NCBI RefSeq assembly: GCF_014204865.1
Contig: NZ_JACHMG010000001.1
Span: forward strand, 3,002,501-3,066,500
Reading direction: 5' to 3'
DNA: 64,000 bases
From: Amycolatopsis jiangsuensis
GTDB lineage: Bacteria; Actinomycetota; Actinomycetes; Mycobacteriales; Pseudonocardiaceae
Shown: positions 36,063 through 42,315 of the stretch, one piece after another
Layout of the letters: the number at the start of each line of letters is the position of its first letter
Numbering within the stretch: the stretch's first letter is position 1
The notes under the pieces: model-generated
The model's database searches: none
Told to the model about the DNA's origin: nothing
The model's input: the letters and a program-made list of their open reading frames with translations, nothing else
Translations under genes and position numbers: made by a program

Positions 36063-37457
36063 TCAGAGCCCGTACTCCTCCAGCAGCCGCAGCCACACCT
36101 CGCTGATCGTCGGGAACGACGGCACCGCGTGCCACAGCCGGTCCAGCGGCACCTCGCCGACCACCGCGATCGTCGCCGAGTGCAGCAGCTCGGACACGTC
36201 CTGGCCGACGAACGTCACGCCGAGCACCACTCCCCGTTCGGTGTCCACGACCATCCGCGCCTTGCCGGCGTACCCGTCGGCGTGCAGTGACGAACCGGCG
36301 ACCGCGATGTCGAGGTCCACGACCCGGTCGGCGGAGCCCTCGCGCGCCTCCGTCAGCCCGACCGACGTCACCTCCGGATCGGTGAACACCACTTGCGGCA
36401 CCGCGCGGTGGTCGGCGGTGGCGCTGTACCGGCTCCACGGCCCGGTCGGGATTTCCGCACCACCGGCCCGCGCGGCCACCGAGTCCCCGGCGACGCGCGC
36501 CTCGTACTTGCCCTGGTGGGTCAGCAGCGCCCGGCCGGTCACGTCACCGGCCGCGTAGAGCCAGCCACCGTCCACAGCGGACACCCGGCCGCTGTCGTCG
36601 ATCTCGAGTGGATCGCCGGCGGACAGGCCCAGCACGTCGAGGCCGACGTCGCCGGTCGCCGGCGTGCGGCCGGTCGCGACCAGCAGCTCGTCCACGACCA
36701 GTTCGGCACCGCCGGTGAGCTTCAGCGCGGTACCGCCGTCCACAGCGGACACTTCCTCGAGCCCGGACGAGGTGTGCACCAGCACGCCCGCTTCGCGCAG
36801 CCCGTCGAGCAGCAGGTCACCGGCGAACTGCGGCAGCTTCGGCAGCGGCCGCGGGCCGGTGATCACGAGGTCGACCCGCGCGCCGAGCCGAGCCCACGCC
36901 TGCGCCATCTCGACCCCGACCACGCCTCCGCCGAGCACGCCGAGCCGCGCCGGCACCTCGGACGCCGACGTCGCGTCGCGCGAACCCCACGGCCGGATCG
37001 TGTCCAGCCCCGGGATCGACGGCAGACGCGGAACGCTGCCCGTGCACACGATCACCGCGTGCCGTGCGACGAGCACCTCACCGCCGTCGAGCGTCACCTC
37101 GCGTTCGCCGGTGATCCGGCCGTGGCCCCGCACCGGCTCGATGCCCGCGCCACGCGCCCAGTCGACCTGCCCGGTGTCGTCACCCTTGCCGGTGAACCAG
37201 TCGCGGCGCTCGAGCACGCGCGCGGGCTCGAGCGCGTCGCCGACCGGGACGCCGGGGATCCGCTTGGCCGCGGCGAGCAGATTTCCCGGACGCAGCAACG
37301 CCTTGCTCGGGATGCACGCCCAGTAGGAGCATTCTCCGCCGAACAGTTCGTGTTCGACGAGCGCCACCTTCAGCCCGCCCTTGGCGGCCCGTTCCGCGGC
37401 CACCTCACCGACCGGGCCCGCGCCGATCACCACGACGTCGAAAGTCTGTTCTGCCAT
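36063..37457 (-). CDS. Pyridine nucleotide-disulfide oxidoreductase, dihydrolipoamide-dehydrogenase-like
   Basis: This 464-residue flavoprotein has FAD motif 'DVVVIGAGPVGEVAAERAAK' at the N-terminus. The redox-active pair lies in 'FGGECSYWACIPSKALLRP' (CX4C), and the NAD(P) motif is 'LGVLGGGVVGVEMAQAW'. The C-terminal dimer-interface histidine and glutamate are in 'HAVPSFPTISEVW'. The usual E3 wording around the cysteines is GGTCLNVGCIPSK. The E, SYW and A substitutions place this protein in the side branch of mercuric-reductase/LpdA-like enzymes rather than true lipoamide dehydrogenase. It may be an NAD(P)H quinone or disulfide reductase. It starts at ATG 37457. Confidence 0.88.
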   Translation of the reverse strand: MAEQTFDVVVIGAGPVGEVAAERAAKGGLKVALVEHELFGGECSYWACIPSKALLRPGNLLAAAKRIPGVPVGDALEPARVLERRDWFTGKGDDTGQVDWARGAGIEPVRGHGRITGEREVTLDGGEVLVARHAVIVCTGSVPRLPSIPGLDTIRPWGSRDATSASEVPARLGVLGGGVVGVEMAQAWARLGARVDLVITGPRPLPKLPQFAGDLLLDGLREAGVLVHTSSGLEEVSAVDGGTALKLTGGAELVVDELLVATGRTPATGDVGLDVLGLSAGDPLEIDDSGRVSAVDGGWLYAAGDVTGRALLTHQGKYEARVAGDSVAARAGGAEIPTGPWSRYSATADHRAVPQVVFTDPEVTSVGLTEAREGSADRVVDLDIAVAGSSLHADGYAGKARMVVDTERGVVLGVTFVGQDVSELLHSATIAVVGEVPLDRLWHAVPSFPTISEVWLRLLEEYGL

Positions 37458-37602
37458 CCGCCCAGCGCACACCACCACGCGGGTTCGCGCAAGCCAGCAG
37501 CTACTCTCGTCAGCGAGCTGCAAGAAACCGGCGGCACCGGGAGGACCGGGGCGTCGCCGTGCCGGTTGCACGCACGACCTCGATCGAGCACGGGAGACTC
37601 CC

Positions 37603-38763
37603 ATGGCCAAGAACACCGCTGTCCGCACCCCTGACGACCTGACCGGCGAGCCGGCGTCGGAGACCGTGACGTTCGCGCTCGACGGCGCCGACTACGACAT
37701 CGACCTCTCGCCGGGCAACGCCGCCACGCTCCGCGCCCTCCTCGGCCGCTACACCACACACGGCCGCCGCACGGGCGGGCGCAAGCTTCGGCCCCGATAC
37801 CTTCCCGGCGCGCAGAAAGCCAAACGCAGCACCGCAAAGCCGGCAGCCGGCACCCGAGCCGCGGCGGCCGCCAAACCGGCGGTGGCGAAGAAACCCAAGC
37901 CCGCCAAGGCAACCGTGGACAAGGCGAACGTCAGTAAGGCGAGCACGGCCACGACGGCACCGGGGAAGACGGCGCGCACGAAGCCAGTCACGGCGAAGGC
38001 GACCGGAACCAAGGCAGACAGCACGAAGACGCCCGGCACGAAGGTCACGGCCGCCAAGGCTGGGACGAAGGTTGCGGGCGCCAAGACCAGCGGCACGAAG
38101 GCCACGGGCGCAAAGGCCGGCACGAAGCCGACGGCCGCCAAGACCAGCGGCACGAAGGCGACGGCCGCCAAGACCAGCGGCACGAAGCCGACGGCCGCCA
38201 AGGCCGGCGGCGCGAAGGCGACGGCCAAGGTGGCCGGCGCCAAGACCGCACGAGCGAAGGCAAACCCGGCCAAGACGGCAGCCACCCGTTCGACCGGCAA
38301 GGCCACTGCCCCGCCACGCCGGACCACCACCTCCGCCGCGGCCCGCAACACCGCCGCGGCCACGCCGCCCACTGCCCGCCCCAGGGGAAACGCGGCCGCC
38401 ACCCCGGCTCGGACCACAGCGAAAACCACAACCCGAGCCAAGGCGTCGACCACCACCCCAACCCACAGCAAGCCGGCCACCGGCACCACTGCGGCCGCTA
38501 ACAGGGTCACCACCTCCAAAGCCGCCGCAACAACTCGCAGCAAGCCCGCCACCGGCACCACCGCGACTGGCAAAGCCGCCACCACCGCCACTGGCAGCAA
38601 AGCCGCGACCGGCAGCAAGGCCAGCAGCGGCAAAGCCACCGTCCCGGCGCGGGGCGCGGCCACCACGCCCCAGCCCGCGTTCACCGATCCCTCCGCGGCG
38701 CCGGCCAGGGCGCGCCGGGCCGCGCGGAACGTTCCCGTGGTTCGGTTCTCTTCCGGCAGCTGA
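37603..38763 (+). CDS. Lsr2-domain protein with long histone-H1-like Lys/Ala/Thr tail
   Basis: The 386-residue protein starts at ATG 37603 (GGGAG upstream). Residues 1-60 match the N-terminal oligomerisation domain of Lsr2: 'ETVTFALDGADYDIDLSPGN' aligns with the ETVEFGLDG-YEIDLS core, and the segment ends in 'GRRTGGRK', as Lsr2 does. The C-terminal Lsr2 DNA-binding domain with its RGR AT-hook is absent. Residues 61-386 are an extended basic tail of K, A, T, G, P and S with tandem units such as TKATAAKTSG and TKPTAAKTSG, like the tails of eukaryotic H1 and mycobacterial HupB. It should oligomerise through the head and coat DNA through the tail. The tail codons are GC-rich like those of the neighbours. 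It is probably an undescribed class of nucleoid protein. Confidence 0.8.
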   Translation: MAKNTAVRTPDDLTGEPASETVTFALDGADYDIDLSPGNAATLRALLGRYTTHGRRTGGRKLRPRYLPGAQKAKRSTAKPAAGTRAAAAAKPAVAKKPKPAKATVDKANVSKASTATTAPGKTARTKPVTAKATGTKADSTKTPGTKVTAAKAGTKVAGAKTSGTKATGAKAGTKPTAAKTSGTKATAAKTSGTKPTAAKAGGAKATAKVAGAKTARAKANPAKTAATRSTGKATAPPRRTTTSAAARNTAAATPPTARPRGNAAATPARTTAKTTTRAKASTTTPTHSKPATGTTAAANRVTTSKAAATTRSKPATGTTATGKAATTATGSKAATGSKASSGKATVPARGAATTPQPAFTDPSAAPARARRAARNVPVVRFSSGS

Positions 38764-38781: not shown

Positions 38782-39513
38782 TCAGGCTGGGCGTTGCCGT
38801 CCCTCGGTGTGCCACGGCGGGTAGTGGTAGCGCGTGCGCAGGAGTTCCTGCTGCCGGGTCAGTTCCGCAGCAGCAGGGGGGCGTGGGGGGAGCGGGCCGA
38901 GCAGTTCGGCGGCGACCGTGCGGACCACCGTCTCCACCTCGCCCTCGGCCGGGTGCACGCCGTGGTCCGCCAGCGACGCCACCGCGCTGCGGTGGGAATC
39001 CAGGGGTTTCGGGTCCGGCGGCGGGCCGGTCAGGTAGGCGCCGACCCGGGCGGCGTCCGTGTCGACGAGCAGCGTCGAGTGCGCGAGCAGGCCTTCCTTC
39101 GTGCGGAACACCGCGAATCCGCACAGCTTCGCCGGACCCACGAACACGCCCCGATCGCCCAGCCGCGGCGGCAGGCCCAGCCGCTCCACCACACCCGTCA
39201 TCAGCCGGCCGAGCATGTCCATCGGACGGTCCGTGGGGCCGGGCAGCAGCATCGTCACGTTGAGGTTCCCGGGGTCGTGGAACACCGTGCCGCCGCCGGA
39301 AGCACGACGCAGCACCGGCACGCCGTCGCGGGCGCACTCGGCCACCCGGACCTCTCGCGCGAGCTTCTGCCCGCGCCCGACCACCACGCACACCGGATTG
39401 CGCCACAGCCACAGCACCGGCGCCGTCGGGGCCTCCCGCAGCAGTGCCTCGTCGAAGGCGAGGTTCTCGGTCGGATCCGCGAACTCGGCCCGCACGTCCG
39501 ACCCGTCGGTCAT
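38782..39513 (-). CDS. lplA: Lipoate-protein ligase A family protein
   Basis: The 243-residue product belongs to the biotin/lipoyl transferase fold. 'VLRRASGGGTVFHDPGNLNV' is the ligase RRxSGGGxVxHD motif. 'VGPAKLCGFAVFR' carries the catalytic lysine (about residue 127). 'LLAHSTLLVDTD' is the usual following block. It attaches lipoate or octanoate to E2 and GcvH lipoyl domains. The ATG at 39513 overlaps the stop of pntB (ATGA), so it is cotranscribed with the transhydrogenase genes, an unusual partner. The C-terminal accessory domain of E. coli LplA is short or missing, as in octanoyltransferase-like relatives. It could therefore be an LipM/LplJ-type enzyme. Confidence 0.85.
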   Translation of the reverse strand: MTDGSDVRAEFADPTENLAFDEALLREAPTAPVLWLWRNPVCVVVGRGQKLAREVRVAECARDGVPVLRRASGGGTVFHDPGNLNVTMLLPGPTDRPMDMLGRLMTGVVERLGLPPRLGDRGVFVGPAKLCGFAVFRTKEGLLAHSTLLVDTDAARVGAYLTGPPPDPKPLDSHRSAVASLADHGVHPAEGEVETVVRTVAAELLGPLPPRPPAAAELTRQQELLRTRYHYPPWHTEGRQRPA

Positions 39514-40901
39514 AGGGTTTTCAGTTCCTCCACGATCTCGCCCACCGAGGACTTCGCGTCCCCGAAGAGCATGCTGGTCTTGGGATCGTAGAACAGCTCG
39601 TTGTCGATGCCGGCGAAGCCCGAGCTCATCCCGCGCTTGAGCACGATCACCGAACGGCTCTCGTTGACCTTCAGGATCGGCATGCCGTAGATCGGCGAGG
39701 ACGGATCGGTCTGCGCGGCCGGGTTCGTCACGTCGTTCGCGCCGATCACGAGCGCCACGTCGGTCTGGCCGAACTCGGAGTTGATCTCGTCCATCTCCCG
39801 CAGCTGCTCGTAGGGCACGTCGGCCTCGGCGAGCAGCACGTTCATGTGCCCCGGCATCCGCCCGGCCACCGGGTGGATCGCGTAGGCGACCTCGATTCCC
39901 TTGCCCTCCAGTAGTTTCGCCATCTCCCGCACGGTGTGCTGGGCCTGCGCCACGGCCATCCCGTAGCCGGGCACCACCACGACCTTGCTCGCGTAGGCCA
40001 TCTGGATCGCCGTGTCCGCGGCACTCGTGCTGCGGACCGGCCGCACCTCGCCGGAACCCGGCGCACCCCCGGCGACGGCGGAGCCGCCACCGAACCCGCC
40101 TGCCACGATCGCCGGGATGGACCGGTTCATCGCCTTCGCCATCAGGTTGGTGAGGATCGACCCGGACGCGCCGACGATCATGCCCGCCACGATCAGCGCG
40201 GTGTTCGACAGGGCGAGCCCCATCGCCGCCGCGGACAGCCCGGTGAACGCGTTCAGCAGCGAGATCACCACCGGCATGTCCGCGCCGCCGATCGGCAGCA
40301 CCACCAACAGGCCCAGCACCGCGGCCGCGACCAGCAGACCGATCATCAGCAGCTCGGCGTCCCCGCCCGCGGCGATCACCACCGCACACGCGGCCGCGAC
40401 CAGCAGCACGAGCACGTTCAGGGGCTGCTGCAGTTTCCCGAGGGTGACCGGCCGGCCGGTGATCAGCTCCTGCAGCTTGCCGAACGCGACGTTCGAGCCC
40501 CAGAACGAGATCGATCCGATCAGCGCGGCGAACAGCGACGCGATCGCCACGTAGAGCGGTTCGTGCGCGTACCCGTCGGTGTTGTGGAATTCCACCCACG
40601 CGATGAGCGCGACCGCGCCACCACCGACGCCGTTGAACAGCGCCACCATCTGCGGCATCGCGGTCATCTTCACCTTGCGCGCGGACGGCACGCCGACCAG
40701 CGCGCCGATCGCGACGCCGAGGATGATCAGCAGCCAGTTGCCCATGCCCGGGGTGAGCAGCGTGGCGATCACCGCGATCACCATGCCGCCCGCGGCAATC
40801 CAGTTGCCGCGCACCGCGGTGCGCGGGCCGGTCAGCCCCATCAGGCCGTAGATGAACAGGGCGAACGCGACGATGTAGAGGACCGCGACGAGCTGGGTCA
40901 C
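39510..40901 (-). CDS. pntB: NAD(P) transhydrogenase subunit beta
   Basis: The 463-residue product has nine hydrophobic helices in residues 1-260 (the proton channel half). The NADP(H)-binding dIII domain follows ('VVVPGYGMAVAQAQHTVRE' at about residue 310). 'IHPVAGRMPGHMNVLLAEA' and 'VIGANDVTNPAA' are conserved NADP contacts. It completes the membrane enzyme that drives NADPH formation from NADH with the proton gradient. GTG 40901 overlaps the stop of pntAb (GTGA). It is encoded in the three-gene arrangement typical of actinobacteria and Rhodospirillum. Confidence 0.97.
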   Translation of the reverse strand: MTQLVAVLYIVAFALFIYGLMGLTGPRTAVRGNWIAAGGMVIAVIATLLTPGMGNWLLIILGVAIGALVGVPSARKVKMTAMPQMVALFNGVGGGAVALIAWVEFHNTDGYAHEPLYVAIASLFAALIGSISFWGSNVAFGKLQELITGRPVTLGKLQQPLNVLVLLVAAACAVVIAAGGDAELLMIGLLVAAAVLGLLVVLPIGGADMPVVISLLNAFTGLSAAAMGLALSNTALIVAGMIVGASGSILTNLMAKAMNRSIPAIVAGGFGGGSAVAGGAPGSGEVRPVRSTSAADTAIQMAYASKVVVVPGYGMAVAQAQHTVREMAKLLEGKGIEVAYAIHPVAGRMPGHMNVLLAEADVPYEQLREMDEINSEFGQTDVALVIGANDVTNPAAQTDPSSPIYGMPILKVNESRSVIVLKRGMSSGFAGIDNELFYDPKTSMLFGDAKSSVGEIVEELKTL

Positions 40902-41212
40902 TTGCCCGCCTCCTCATCCTCACCGGAGCCCGGCTTCTTGCCCTTGAACATGGCCAGCATCCGGTCGGTCACGAGGAATCCGCCGACCACGTTGATCGTG
41001 CCGAAGGCGATCGCGATCACCAGCAGCACCTTGTTCAGCACCCCGTCGACGCCGAGGCCGAGCACGATCAGCCCGCCGAGCAGCACGATGCCGTGGATCG
41101 CGTTGGTGCCCGACATCAACGGCGTGTGCAGGGTGTTCGGCACCTTCGAAATGACCGCGAAGCCCACGAAACCCGCGAGCACGAGCACGGCCAGGTTTTC
41201 CACCAGCGTCAC
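40898..41212 (-). CDS. pntAb: NAD(P) transhydrogenase subunit alpha, membrane part (PntAb)
   Basis: This small 104-residue subunit has three membrane helices: 'VENLAVLVLAGFVGFAVIS' first, then 'IHGIVLLGGLIVLGLGVDG' and the next helix. 'VPNTLHTPLMSGTNAIHGI' is diagnostic for the alpha-2 segment of transhydrogenase. GTG 41212 overlaps the stop of pntAa, and its stop overlaps the start of pntB. The charged tail 'GKKPGSGEDEEAGK' is cytoplasmic. Confidence 0.96.
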   Translation of the reverse strand: MTLVENLAVLVLAGFVGFAVISKVPNTLHTPLMSGTNAIHGIVLLGGLIVLGLGVDGVLNKVLLVIAIAFGTINVVGGFLVTDRMLAMFKGKKPGSGEDEEAGK

Positions 41213-42315
41213 GACTCGCTCCCTTCCCGGCCGGCCACGCAGGCACCGGCGACGACCTCGTCGGAGAAGTCGAGCCGAAGCTCGCCCTCGGTGGTCACGA
41301 GCAGTTCCAGGAGCTCGGTGACGTTGCGCGCGTACAGCTCGCTCGCGTGCGCCGGCATCCCGGCGGGCAGGTTGAGCGGCGCGCTGACCGTGACGCCGTG
41401 CGCCACGATGTCCTCCCCCGGGCGGCTCAGCTCGCAGTTGCCGCCGGACTCCCCGGCCAGGTCGAGCACCACGCCGCCGGCCGGCATACCCCGCACCGCG
41501 TCCTCGGTGACTAGAGTCGGGGCCTTACGGCCGGGCACGAGCGCGGTGGTGACCACGACGTCGAACTTCGTGATCGCCTCGGTGAGCCGGCGTTGCTGTT
41601 CGGCGCGCTCCTCCTCGGTCAGCTCCCGGGCGTAGCCGCCCTCGCCGACCGCCTCGATGCCCAGGTCCAGGAACTGTGCGCCGAGGGACCGGACCTGCTC
41701 ACCGACCTCGGGCCGCACGTCGTAACCGGTGGTCTGGGCGCCGAGCCGCTTCGCCGTGGCCAGCGCCTGCAACCCGGCCACGCCGGCACCGAGGACCAGC
41801 ACCTTCGCCGGCGGCACGGTGCCGGCCGCGGTGGTGAGCATCGGGAAGAACCGGTTCAGCTTCTCCGCGGCCAGCAACACCGCGCGGTATCCGGCGACAC
41901 TGCTCTGCGACGACAGCGCGTCCATCGCCTGTGCCCGCGAGATGCGCGGCACCGCCTCCATCGCGAACGCCCGGATGCCCGCCTGCTCAAGCGCGGCGAT
42001 CCCGTCCGGATCGCCGCGGGGATCGAGGAACCCGATCAGCACGGTGCCCCGCTTGAGCTTCCCGATCTCCTCCGCCGTCGGCGCGGCGACCTTGACCACG
42101 ACGTCCGCCTGCCAGGGATCACCGAGCTCGGCGCCCGCTTCGACGTACGCTTCGTCGGCCAGCTGCGCGCCGGCCCCGGCGCCGCGTTCGACGATGGTGC
42201 TCAGGCCGCGCGTCGCCAGCCTCGATACGAGCTTCGGTACCAGCGCGACCCGGCTTTCGCCAGGGCGGGATTCGGTGACCACGCCGACCGTGAGCCGGCT
42301 TCCGCTTTCCGCCAC
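41209..42315 (-). CDS. pntAa: NAD(P) transhydrogenase subunit alpha, NAD-binding part (PntAa)
   Basis: The 368-residue soluble dI subunit binds NAD(H). It shows 'TESRPGESRVALVPKLV' at the start, the mobile-loop segment 'MEAVPRISRAQAMDALSSQS', the Rossmann motif 'VLVLGAGVAGLQALATAKR', and 'VTTALVPGRKAPTLVTEDAV'. The start is GTG 42315 with GAGGAGG 4 nt upstream. It is the first gene of pntAa-pntAb-pntB-lplA, all with 4-bp overlaps. The TetR regulator gene lies just upstream on the same strand, 76 bp away. Confidence 0.97.
   Translation of the reverse strand: MAESGSRLTVGVVTESRPGESRVALVPKLVSRLATRGLSTIVERGAGAGAQLADEAYVEAGAELGDPWQADVVVKVAAPTAEEIGKLKRGTVLIGFLDPRGDPDGIAALEQAGIRAFAMEAVPRISRAQAMDALSSQSSVAGYRAVLLAAEKLNRFFPMLTTAAGTVPPAKVLVLGAGVAGLQALATAKRLGAQTTGYDVRPEVGEQVRSLGAQFLDLGIEAVGEGGYARELTEEERAEQQRRLTEAITKFDVVVTTALVPGRKAPTLVTEDAVRGMPAGGVVLDLAGESGGNCELSRPGEDIVAHGVTVSAPLNLPAGMPAHASELYARNVTELLELLVTTEGELRLDFSDEVVAGACVAGREGSES

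Follow-up and report, generated by a model that had tools for sequence, protein, structure and literature searches.

The window, a 64,000-nucleotide stretch of the 8.05-Mb genome of Amycolatopsis jiangsuensis, carries a gene for a tailed Lsr2-head protein from a conserved family that is apparently undescribed, as far as the open-licence literature shows. The protein joins an N-terminal Lsr2-type head to a long cationic tail and ends in a short constant tip, and it is this tip, not the histone-like tail, that is the notable part of the family. An earlier note on this DNA had singled out the head-plus-tail architecture and knew of no publication on it; in agreement with this, we found in the open-licence literature no description of a C-domain-less Lsr2 head with a cationic tail, nor of the tip. 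The parts of the gene are as follows.

37603..38763, + strand: whole gene for the tailed Lsr2-head protein, 386 aa (ORF with an ATG start)
37603..37776, + strand: Lsr2 dimerisation/oligomerisation domain PF11774, residues 1-58 (profile match, predicted fold, salt-bridge residues)
37801..38730, + strand: cationic low-complexity tail, residues 67-376, net charge +58 (composition)
38731..38760, + strand: conserved C-terminal tip VPVVRFSSGS, residues 377-386 (conservation of P-x-[VI]-x-F-S)

The family is defined here by four features, all present in the window protein: a head of the tailed clade, a disordered tail, a P-x-[VI]-x-F-S tip, and a locus with an oxidoreductase gene and/or pntB. NCBIfam assigns a family neither to the product of this gene nor to the strain's true Lsr2 proteins and is for that reason uninformative here, and members are labelled in databases as "Lsr2 dimerization domain-containing protein", "histone-like nucleoid-structuring protein Lsr2" or "DNA-binding protein HU-beta".

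An Lsr2-type head without the Lsr2 DNA-binding domain

The head of the window protein is homologous to the N-domain of Lsr2 and is predicted to adopt its fold. Profile PF11774 matched residues 1-58 at 73.2 bits (E 1.3e-20), well over its cut-off of 29.6, which bears out the Lsr2 head that the earlier note had placed at residues 1-60; in the genome search the gene scored 77.1 bits. The nearest solved chains are 4e1p and 4e1r of the M. tuberculosis Lsr2 N-domain (44.5 bits to 4e1p). Structure prediction, proposed in that note for residues 1-60 and run here on residues 1-72, gave the Lsr2 fold in the order strand, strand, helix, with 4e1p ranked first by Foldseek (probability 1.00, TM 0.53/0.66, E 0.015) and moderate model confidence (pLDDT 69, pTM 0.52). 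The Asp-28/Arg-45 salt bridge of the M. tuberculosis Lsr2 dimer (PMC3374832) corresponds to D27 and R44 of the window protein, one residue being inserted in the M. tuberculosis protein. In our family set, compiled from loci and database proteins (151 entries, 115 distinct proteins, the window's included), the R44 site is Arg in 115 of 115 distinct proteins, while the D27 site is Asp in 112, His in two, and Glu in one. The family shares with Lsr2 the N-terminal dimerisation domain, these dimer residues, and the GRRxGGRK end, and over residues 1-64 the window protein is 53% identical to one true Lsr2 of the same strain. The head likely forms dimers and perhaps chains, on the analogy of Lsr2, which needs its head to form foci in M. 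smegmatis (PMC7858621).

What distinguishes the family from Lsr2 (PF11774 plus PF23359) is that the C-terminal DNA-binding domain is replaced by a long tail and the conserved tip. PF23359 was found neither in the window protein (profile search, E up to 0.01) nor in five ORFs that overlap the gene in other frames, one of which gave a weak decapeptide-repeat match below its cut-off; it was also absent from four relatives at E up to 0.1 and from four at E up to 1. When the entire genome was searched in six frames, PF23359 turned up only at the strain's two true Lsr2 genes, L001 (117 aa, 73.0 bits) and L002 (135 aa, 55.9 bits). The tail is therefore not a frameshifted C-domain, an eventuality raised in the earlier note, and the domain loss reported there extends to the protein and to the gene region in all six frames. 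Membership of a conserved family likewise argues that the tail is no frameshift. Since a defining domain is missing from its sequence, the tailed protein is not a full Lsr2 member. In L002 and in Lsr2 proteins from six same-genus genomes (L249-L254) the DNA-binding domain is followed by a short basic tail.

A cationic tail of variable length and chemistry

The tail comprises 310 residues, including 42 Lys, 19 Arg, 91 Ala, 68 Thr, 25 Pro, 24 Gly, and 18 Ser, with three acidic residues. A Lys/Ala/Thr/Pro tail of about 326 residues had been claimed; its cationic, low-complexity character stands, and its length has to be corrected to 310, the last 10 residues being the non-repeat tip. At 38034-38226 the tail DNA is an array of 30/57-base tandem repeats, a structure that would likely explain fast changes in tail length between strains, and tail lengths run from 45 to 328 residues in the 115 distinct family proteins. 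Aromatic residues are almost wanting in these tails, with Phe outside the tip at 0.04%.

In make-up the window tail is similar to the tails of the two HU proteins of this strain, which makes HupB a better comparison than histone H1. The two HU genes (PF00216; L234, G000:C1:3323773-3324033, - strand, and L233, 3327729-3327989, + strand) lie about 4 kb apart, and each encodes a Lys/Ala/Thr tail of about 118 residues, with 16-18% Lys, 33-38% Ala, and 23-26% Thr, close to the composition of the window tail. Both HU tails end in lysines and have no tip. The window protein thus has in common with HU/HupB a Lys/Ala/Thr-rich C-terminal tail and differs from HupB/HupS in lacking the HU domain PF00216, PF11774 being the only domain found. 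No histone H1 or HC2 Pfam model scored above cut-off in the window protein, and in relatives L115 and L102 HC2 scored 18.2 and 12.3 bits, short of its cut-off of 40. The presence of two HupB-type HU proteins in one strain makes a division of labour possible.

A histone-H1-like tail, as the earlier note called it, is not what defines these proteins, nor is it general in the family. The tails of L123/P0014 (Saccharomonospora iraqiensis) and P0017 contain 0% Lys and 12-13% acidic residues and carry a net charge of +4, yet both head and tip are retained; such Saccharomonospora-type relatives fall outside the Lys/Ala/Thr-rich description that fits HU/HupB. Since tails of this kind can lack lysine, the histone-like chemistry varies more than head and tip do. 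By analogy with known lysine-rich tails, DNA binding by the tail is likely. Such tails reportedly hold TopA on DNA, tune HupB binding, and compact DNA in the Streptomyces spore HU (PMC7398561, PMC3784963). In the actinobacterial TopA lysine-repeat domain, H1-like lysine repeats stabilise the DNA complex (PMC7398561); there the repeats are attached to an enzyme, whereas here the tail sits on an Lsr2 head. Charge-based binding may not be universal in the family, since the tails of the eight proteins lowest in Lys (seven from genus g50) have net charges of only +4 to +16. The Saccharomonospora-type members with short Arg-rich or mixed-charge tails (L118, L121, L123, L126, L132-L134, P0014, and P0017) are natural test cases for the role of the lysines.

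The C-terminal tip is the second constant part

Residues 377-386, overlooked when the whole tail was read as repeat, form the second constant part of the protein. The motif P-x-[VI]-x-F-S lies near the C-terminus in 114 of the 115 distinct family proteins, the window protein included, many of which are closely related and hence not independent. These proteins were gathered by their heads, independently of the tip, and the pattern itself fixes its letters. The one exception, P0004, is a metagenome protein from a 726-base contig. In 109 of the 114 tip-bearing proteins the chain ends no more than five residues after FS; in L145 (L145:4001-4885, genome G013) 112 residues intervene between the FS of the tip and the stop. 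Shuffling of the C-terminal regions produced the motif within the last 25 residues in 0 of 2300 cases.

The tip is also constrained at the codon level. For its eight codons, 84 distinct DNA sequences encode 35 peptides, with pS 0.50 and pN 0.21 (ratio 0.42), close to the ratio of 0.37 for the head (60 of 102 distinct sequences). In the strain's DNA, [VA]PxVxFS, searched with TCN codons for the serine and with Val alone at the [VI] site, matched 11 places, compared with five for the backwards control; only the window gene among the 11 ends within 10 codons of the motif, which argues against a tip common to other proteins of the strain.

From its conservation, we consider it somewhat more probable than not that the tip is a docking peptide for a protein partner. 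In a model of a full-length 130-residue relative (mean pLDDT 59) the tail and tip are unstructured, with no strand at the tip, and for this reason the case for docking is one from conservation.

Distribution of the family

The earlier note had called for a search for C-domain-less Lsr2 heads with tails, and this search yielded a conserved family of 115 distinct proteins, not a one-off. A head-only search of 100 genomes gave a strong match (at least 70.7 bits) in 57 of the 59 other same-genus genomes, the two without one being G001 and G035; in G035 the contig ends at the locus. The tip was present in all 49 of the 57 same-genus loci that were read to the C-terminus (G002, G008, G015, G018, G030, G031, G048, and G052 were left out). 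Within the host's taxonomic family the gene occurs in 67 of 297 genomes and nine of 46 genera (hand count), with the tip in all 67. Members include Amycolatopsis species, Prauserella muralis, Saccharomonospora azurea, and S. iraqiensis. By genus, the genomes with the gene are:

Host genus: 25 of 26 (window included)
g52: 19 of 19
g50: 7 of 12
g59: 6 of 7
g41: 4 of 4
g46: 2 of 2
g70: 2 of 2
g36: 1 of 1
g67: 1 of 1

These counts come from reading the loci, because search score alone fails to separate the two kinds of head: tailed and canonical heads overlap near 91 bits in the family search. From the set of 115 proteins five canonical Lsr2 loci (L148-L152), fetched as the best remaining matches, had been removed beforehand. 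A class-level draw of 394 genomes, three of them from the host's taxonomic family (the window's among them), gave tailed-type scores only in the window genome and G131 (g59) among the matches listed. Outside the host's family none of the matches listed exceeded 100.1 bits, compared with 118-121 for the two tailed members, a narrow margin given that canonical Lsr2 reached up to 102.5 bits in the same search. The best 28 outside or canonical loci had a C-domain-like end in 27 cases and the tip in none, one locus not being read, and a further 20 Lsr2-head genes, chosen for long open frames, all had the C-domain; these calls were made by regular expressions and sequence inspection, not by profiles. 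Protein searches restricted to 0.55-1.75 times the query length returned tailed members as two of 307 and 16 of 46 candidates.

The sampled tailed heads form one clade. In a head tree of 57 rows a single branch separates 30 tailed from 27 canonical heads with support 96/90, on only 62 columns, with the bootstrap unsettled and row L099 absent.

A recurrent chromosomal locus

The tailed gene lies between a divergent and a convergent set of neighbours.

37458..37602, + strand: intergenic stretch that separates the tailed gene from the divergent oxidoreductase gene, with blocks conserved in 13 Amycolatopsis relatives
36063..37457, - strand: divergent pyridine nucleotide-disulphide oxidoreductase, a syntenic marker outside the protein (profile and comparison of loci)
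38782..39513, - strand: convergent gene, presumably LplA-like (lipoate ligase type) from its motif, start approximate, syntenic marker
39510..42315, - strand: convergent genes that we take to be pntB, pntAb, and pntAa (NAD(P) transhydrogenase), syntenic markers

Among 84 tailed loci, some from organisms represented twice, the oxidoreductase and pntB occur together in 55, the oxidoreductase alone in 19, and pntB alone in 10; no locus lacks both. The LplA gene intervenes in 28 of the 29 loci labelled Amycolatopsis and in four of the remaining 55. For most of the family's other genera we did not find the oxidoreductase gene next to pntB. Recurrent synteny and a single head clade make a mobile or scattered gene unlikely, and the best reading of the sequences is that the tailed gene is chromosomal and vertically inherited.

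Four genomes (G001, G122, G256, and G296) keep the neighbours with no tailed gene between them, and in the family search none of the four has a head match above the level of canonical Lsr2; we read these absences as losses. The tailed gene is dispensable, since G001, which by its PntB (94% identical, compared with up to 91% at other compared loci) seems to be the closest relative of the window strain, has the neighbours without it. In G128 the interval between pntB and the oxidoreductase holds a canonical Lsr2 gene, L160, whose head groups with canonical Lsr2 (support 86/58, on a long branch), and we therefore do not claim it as a transitional or ancestral form.

Possible functions of the tailed protein

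By analogy with Lsr2 and HupB, the tailed protein probably works as a nucleoid protein. In our best explanation, a putative one to which we give a little less than an even chance, the Lsr2-type head would form dimers, perhaps chains, and the long disordered cationic tail would coat DNA without sequence preference, as do HupB/HupS tails and the TopA lysine repeats. Because the tail sits on a multimer, one particle could hold several DNA segments. The conserved tip would dock a protein partner; if it is a docking peptide, the multimer would tether that partner to the nucleoid or anchor the nucleoid to it. The evidence behind this explanation is the homology and fold of the head, the domain loss, the tail composition, the tip, the clade, and the recurrent locus. 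Against it we count the replacement of D27 in three of 115 proteins, the unstructured tail and tip in the model of the relative, the dispensability of the gene, and a head model of only moderate confidence (pLDDT 69) with a best structural match at E 0.015. DNA binding by the tail as a conserved function is weakened by the Saccharomonospora-type tails, which have few residues and little charge (net +4 in L123 and P0017).

SSB and FtsZ share a plan of folded self-assembling domain, variable disordered linker, and constant C-terminal peptide. The plan of the tailed family is similar, with a linker that here is cationic, and we claim no kinship. Extended along this line, the DNA-coating multimer of Lsr2 heads, with one tip on each arm, could be a chromatin hub that recruits or anchors a partner from the replication, segregation, or envelope machinery and, together with true Lsr2 and HU, makes up a mixed system in Amycolatopsis and its relatives; we think this wider reading possible but less likely than not. 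The family lets one ask which partners would be recruited by a multimer that coats DNA and carries a docking tip, and the conserved tip can serve directly as bait in a pull-down. Amycolatopsis ranks among the major genera of antibiotic producers, so that an extra global nucleoid protein there would be of practical interest.

A rather unlikely alternative is that the protein modulates Lsr2, its head mixing with true Lsr2 so as to weaken, retarget, or extend silencing in the manner of H-NST, with the tail as a non-specific grip on DNA. Lsr2, which binds AT-rich DNA, is a broad repressor of genes in Streptomyces (PMC6584129), and regions acquired horizontally are silenced by Lsr2-like proteins (PMC7002338). 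The 53% head identity, the retained salt-bridge residues, and the two true Lsr2 genes of the strain all favour mixing, and a truncated modulator is known for H-NS (PMC6936261). H-NST resembles the tailed family in being a family head without its DNA-binding domain; it also lacks an oligomerisation site and occurs in some pathogenic E. coli strains (PMC6936261), whereas the tailed family has a tail, a tip, and a recurrent chromosomal locus. Modulation leaves the conserved tip unexplained, and the separation of tailed from canonical heads into their own clade could equally mean that mixing is avoided. The parts of the CgpS paper used here (PMC7002338) do not mention truncated Lsr2-like antagonists, and a 2019 review gives truncated Lsr2 derivatives as unidentified and Lsr2 heteromers as only predicted (PMC6936261). 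From the sequence, mixed oligomers with Lsr2 are possible, because the dimer salt-bridge residues are kept, and a conserved head without the DNA-reading domain is a natural system in which to ask if Lsr2 heads mix. Extra Lsr2-type proteins beside the main one include MSMEG_1060 of M. smegmatis, which covers the whole nucleoid (PMC8125055), and LsrL of Streptomyces (PMC6584129); a second Lsr2 with a long basic linker likewise has an enlarged basic stretch but keeps the DNA-binding motif (PMC6936261).

It is also unlikely, in our judgement, that the protein acts by HupB-type compaction in which only the cationic tail matters, the head multiplying it and the tip serving as a stability or turnover signal. 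In its favour are the likeness to the strain's HU tails, the drift in tail length and repeats, and the ends of both HU tails, which are lysines without a tip. The weakly charged Saccharomonospora-type tails speak against it, as does the fact that a hydrophobic/aromatic tip is conserved in a chain with hardly any other aromatic residues.

We think it very improbable that the tip binds the heads of its own family, its V-x-F-[SAG] strand joining the sheet of a neighbouring dimer in a head-to-tip network. Lsr2 heads trimmed at the N-terminus do join to one another through paired strands (PMC3374832), and the tip (VTFSA) resembles head strand 1, TVxF[AGS] (ETVTFALDG), by eye, a likeness noticed post hoc. 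The model of the 130-residue relative, of low confidence in this region, has no tip strand and lends no support to packing of the tip onto the head.

That the ORF is an artefact, a frameshift, or a decayed Lsr2 gene is scarcely credible: it is low in complexity, G+C-rich, and overlapped by other open frames, but the tip stays in frame despite widely differing tail lengths, no frame at this gene holds the Lsr2 C-domain, synteny recurs among tailed loci, and head and tip codons are under purifying selection, so that tip conservation, pN/pS, and the recurrent locus together rule out a pseudogene or chance ORF.

The start codon of the gene agrees with the conserved start in relatives. A promoter scan at the gene found none, and terminators were at chance level. 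In an alignment of the 170 upstream bases from 14 sequences, the conserved blocks take in the 50 bases directly ahead of the start codon, and the blocks within 37458-37602 may mark a regulatory site or merely reflect short divergence.
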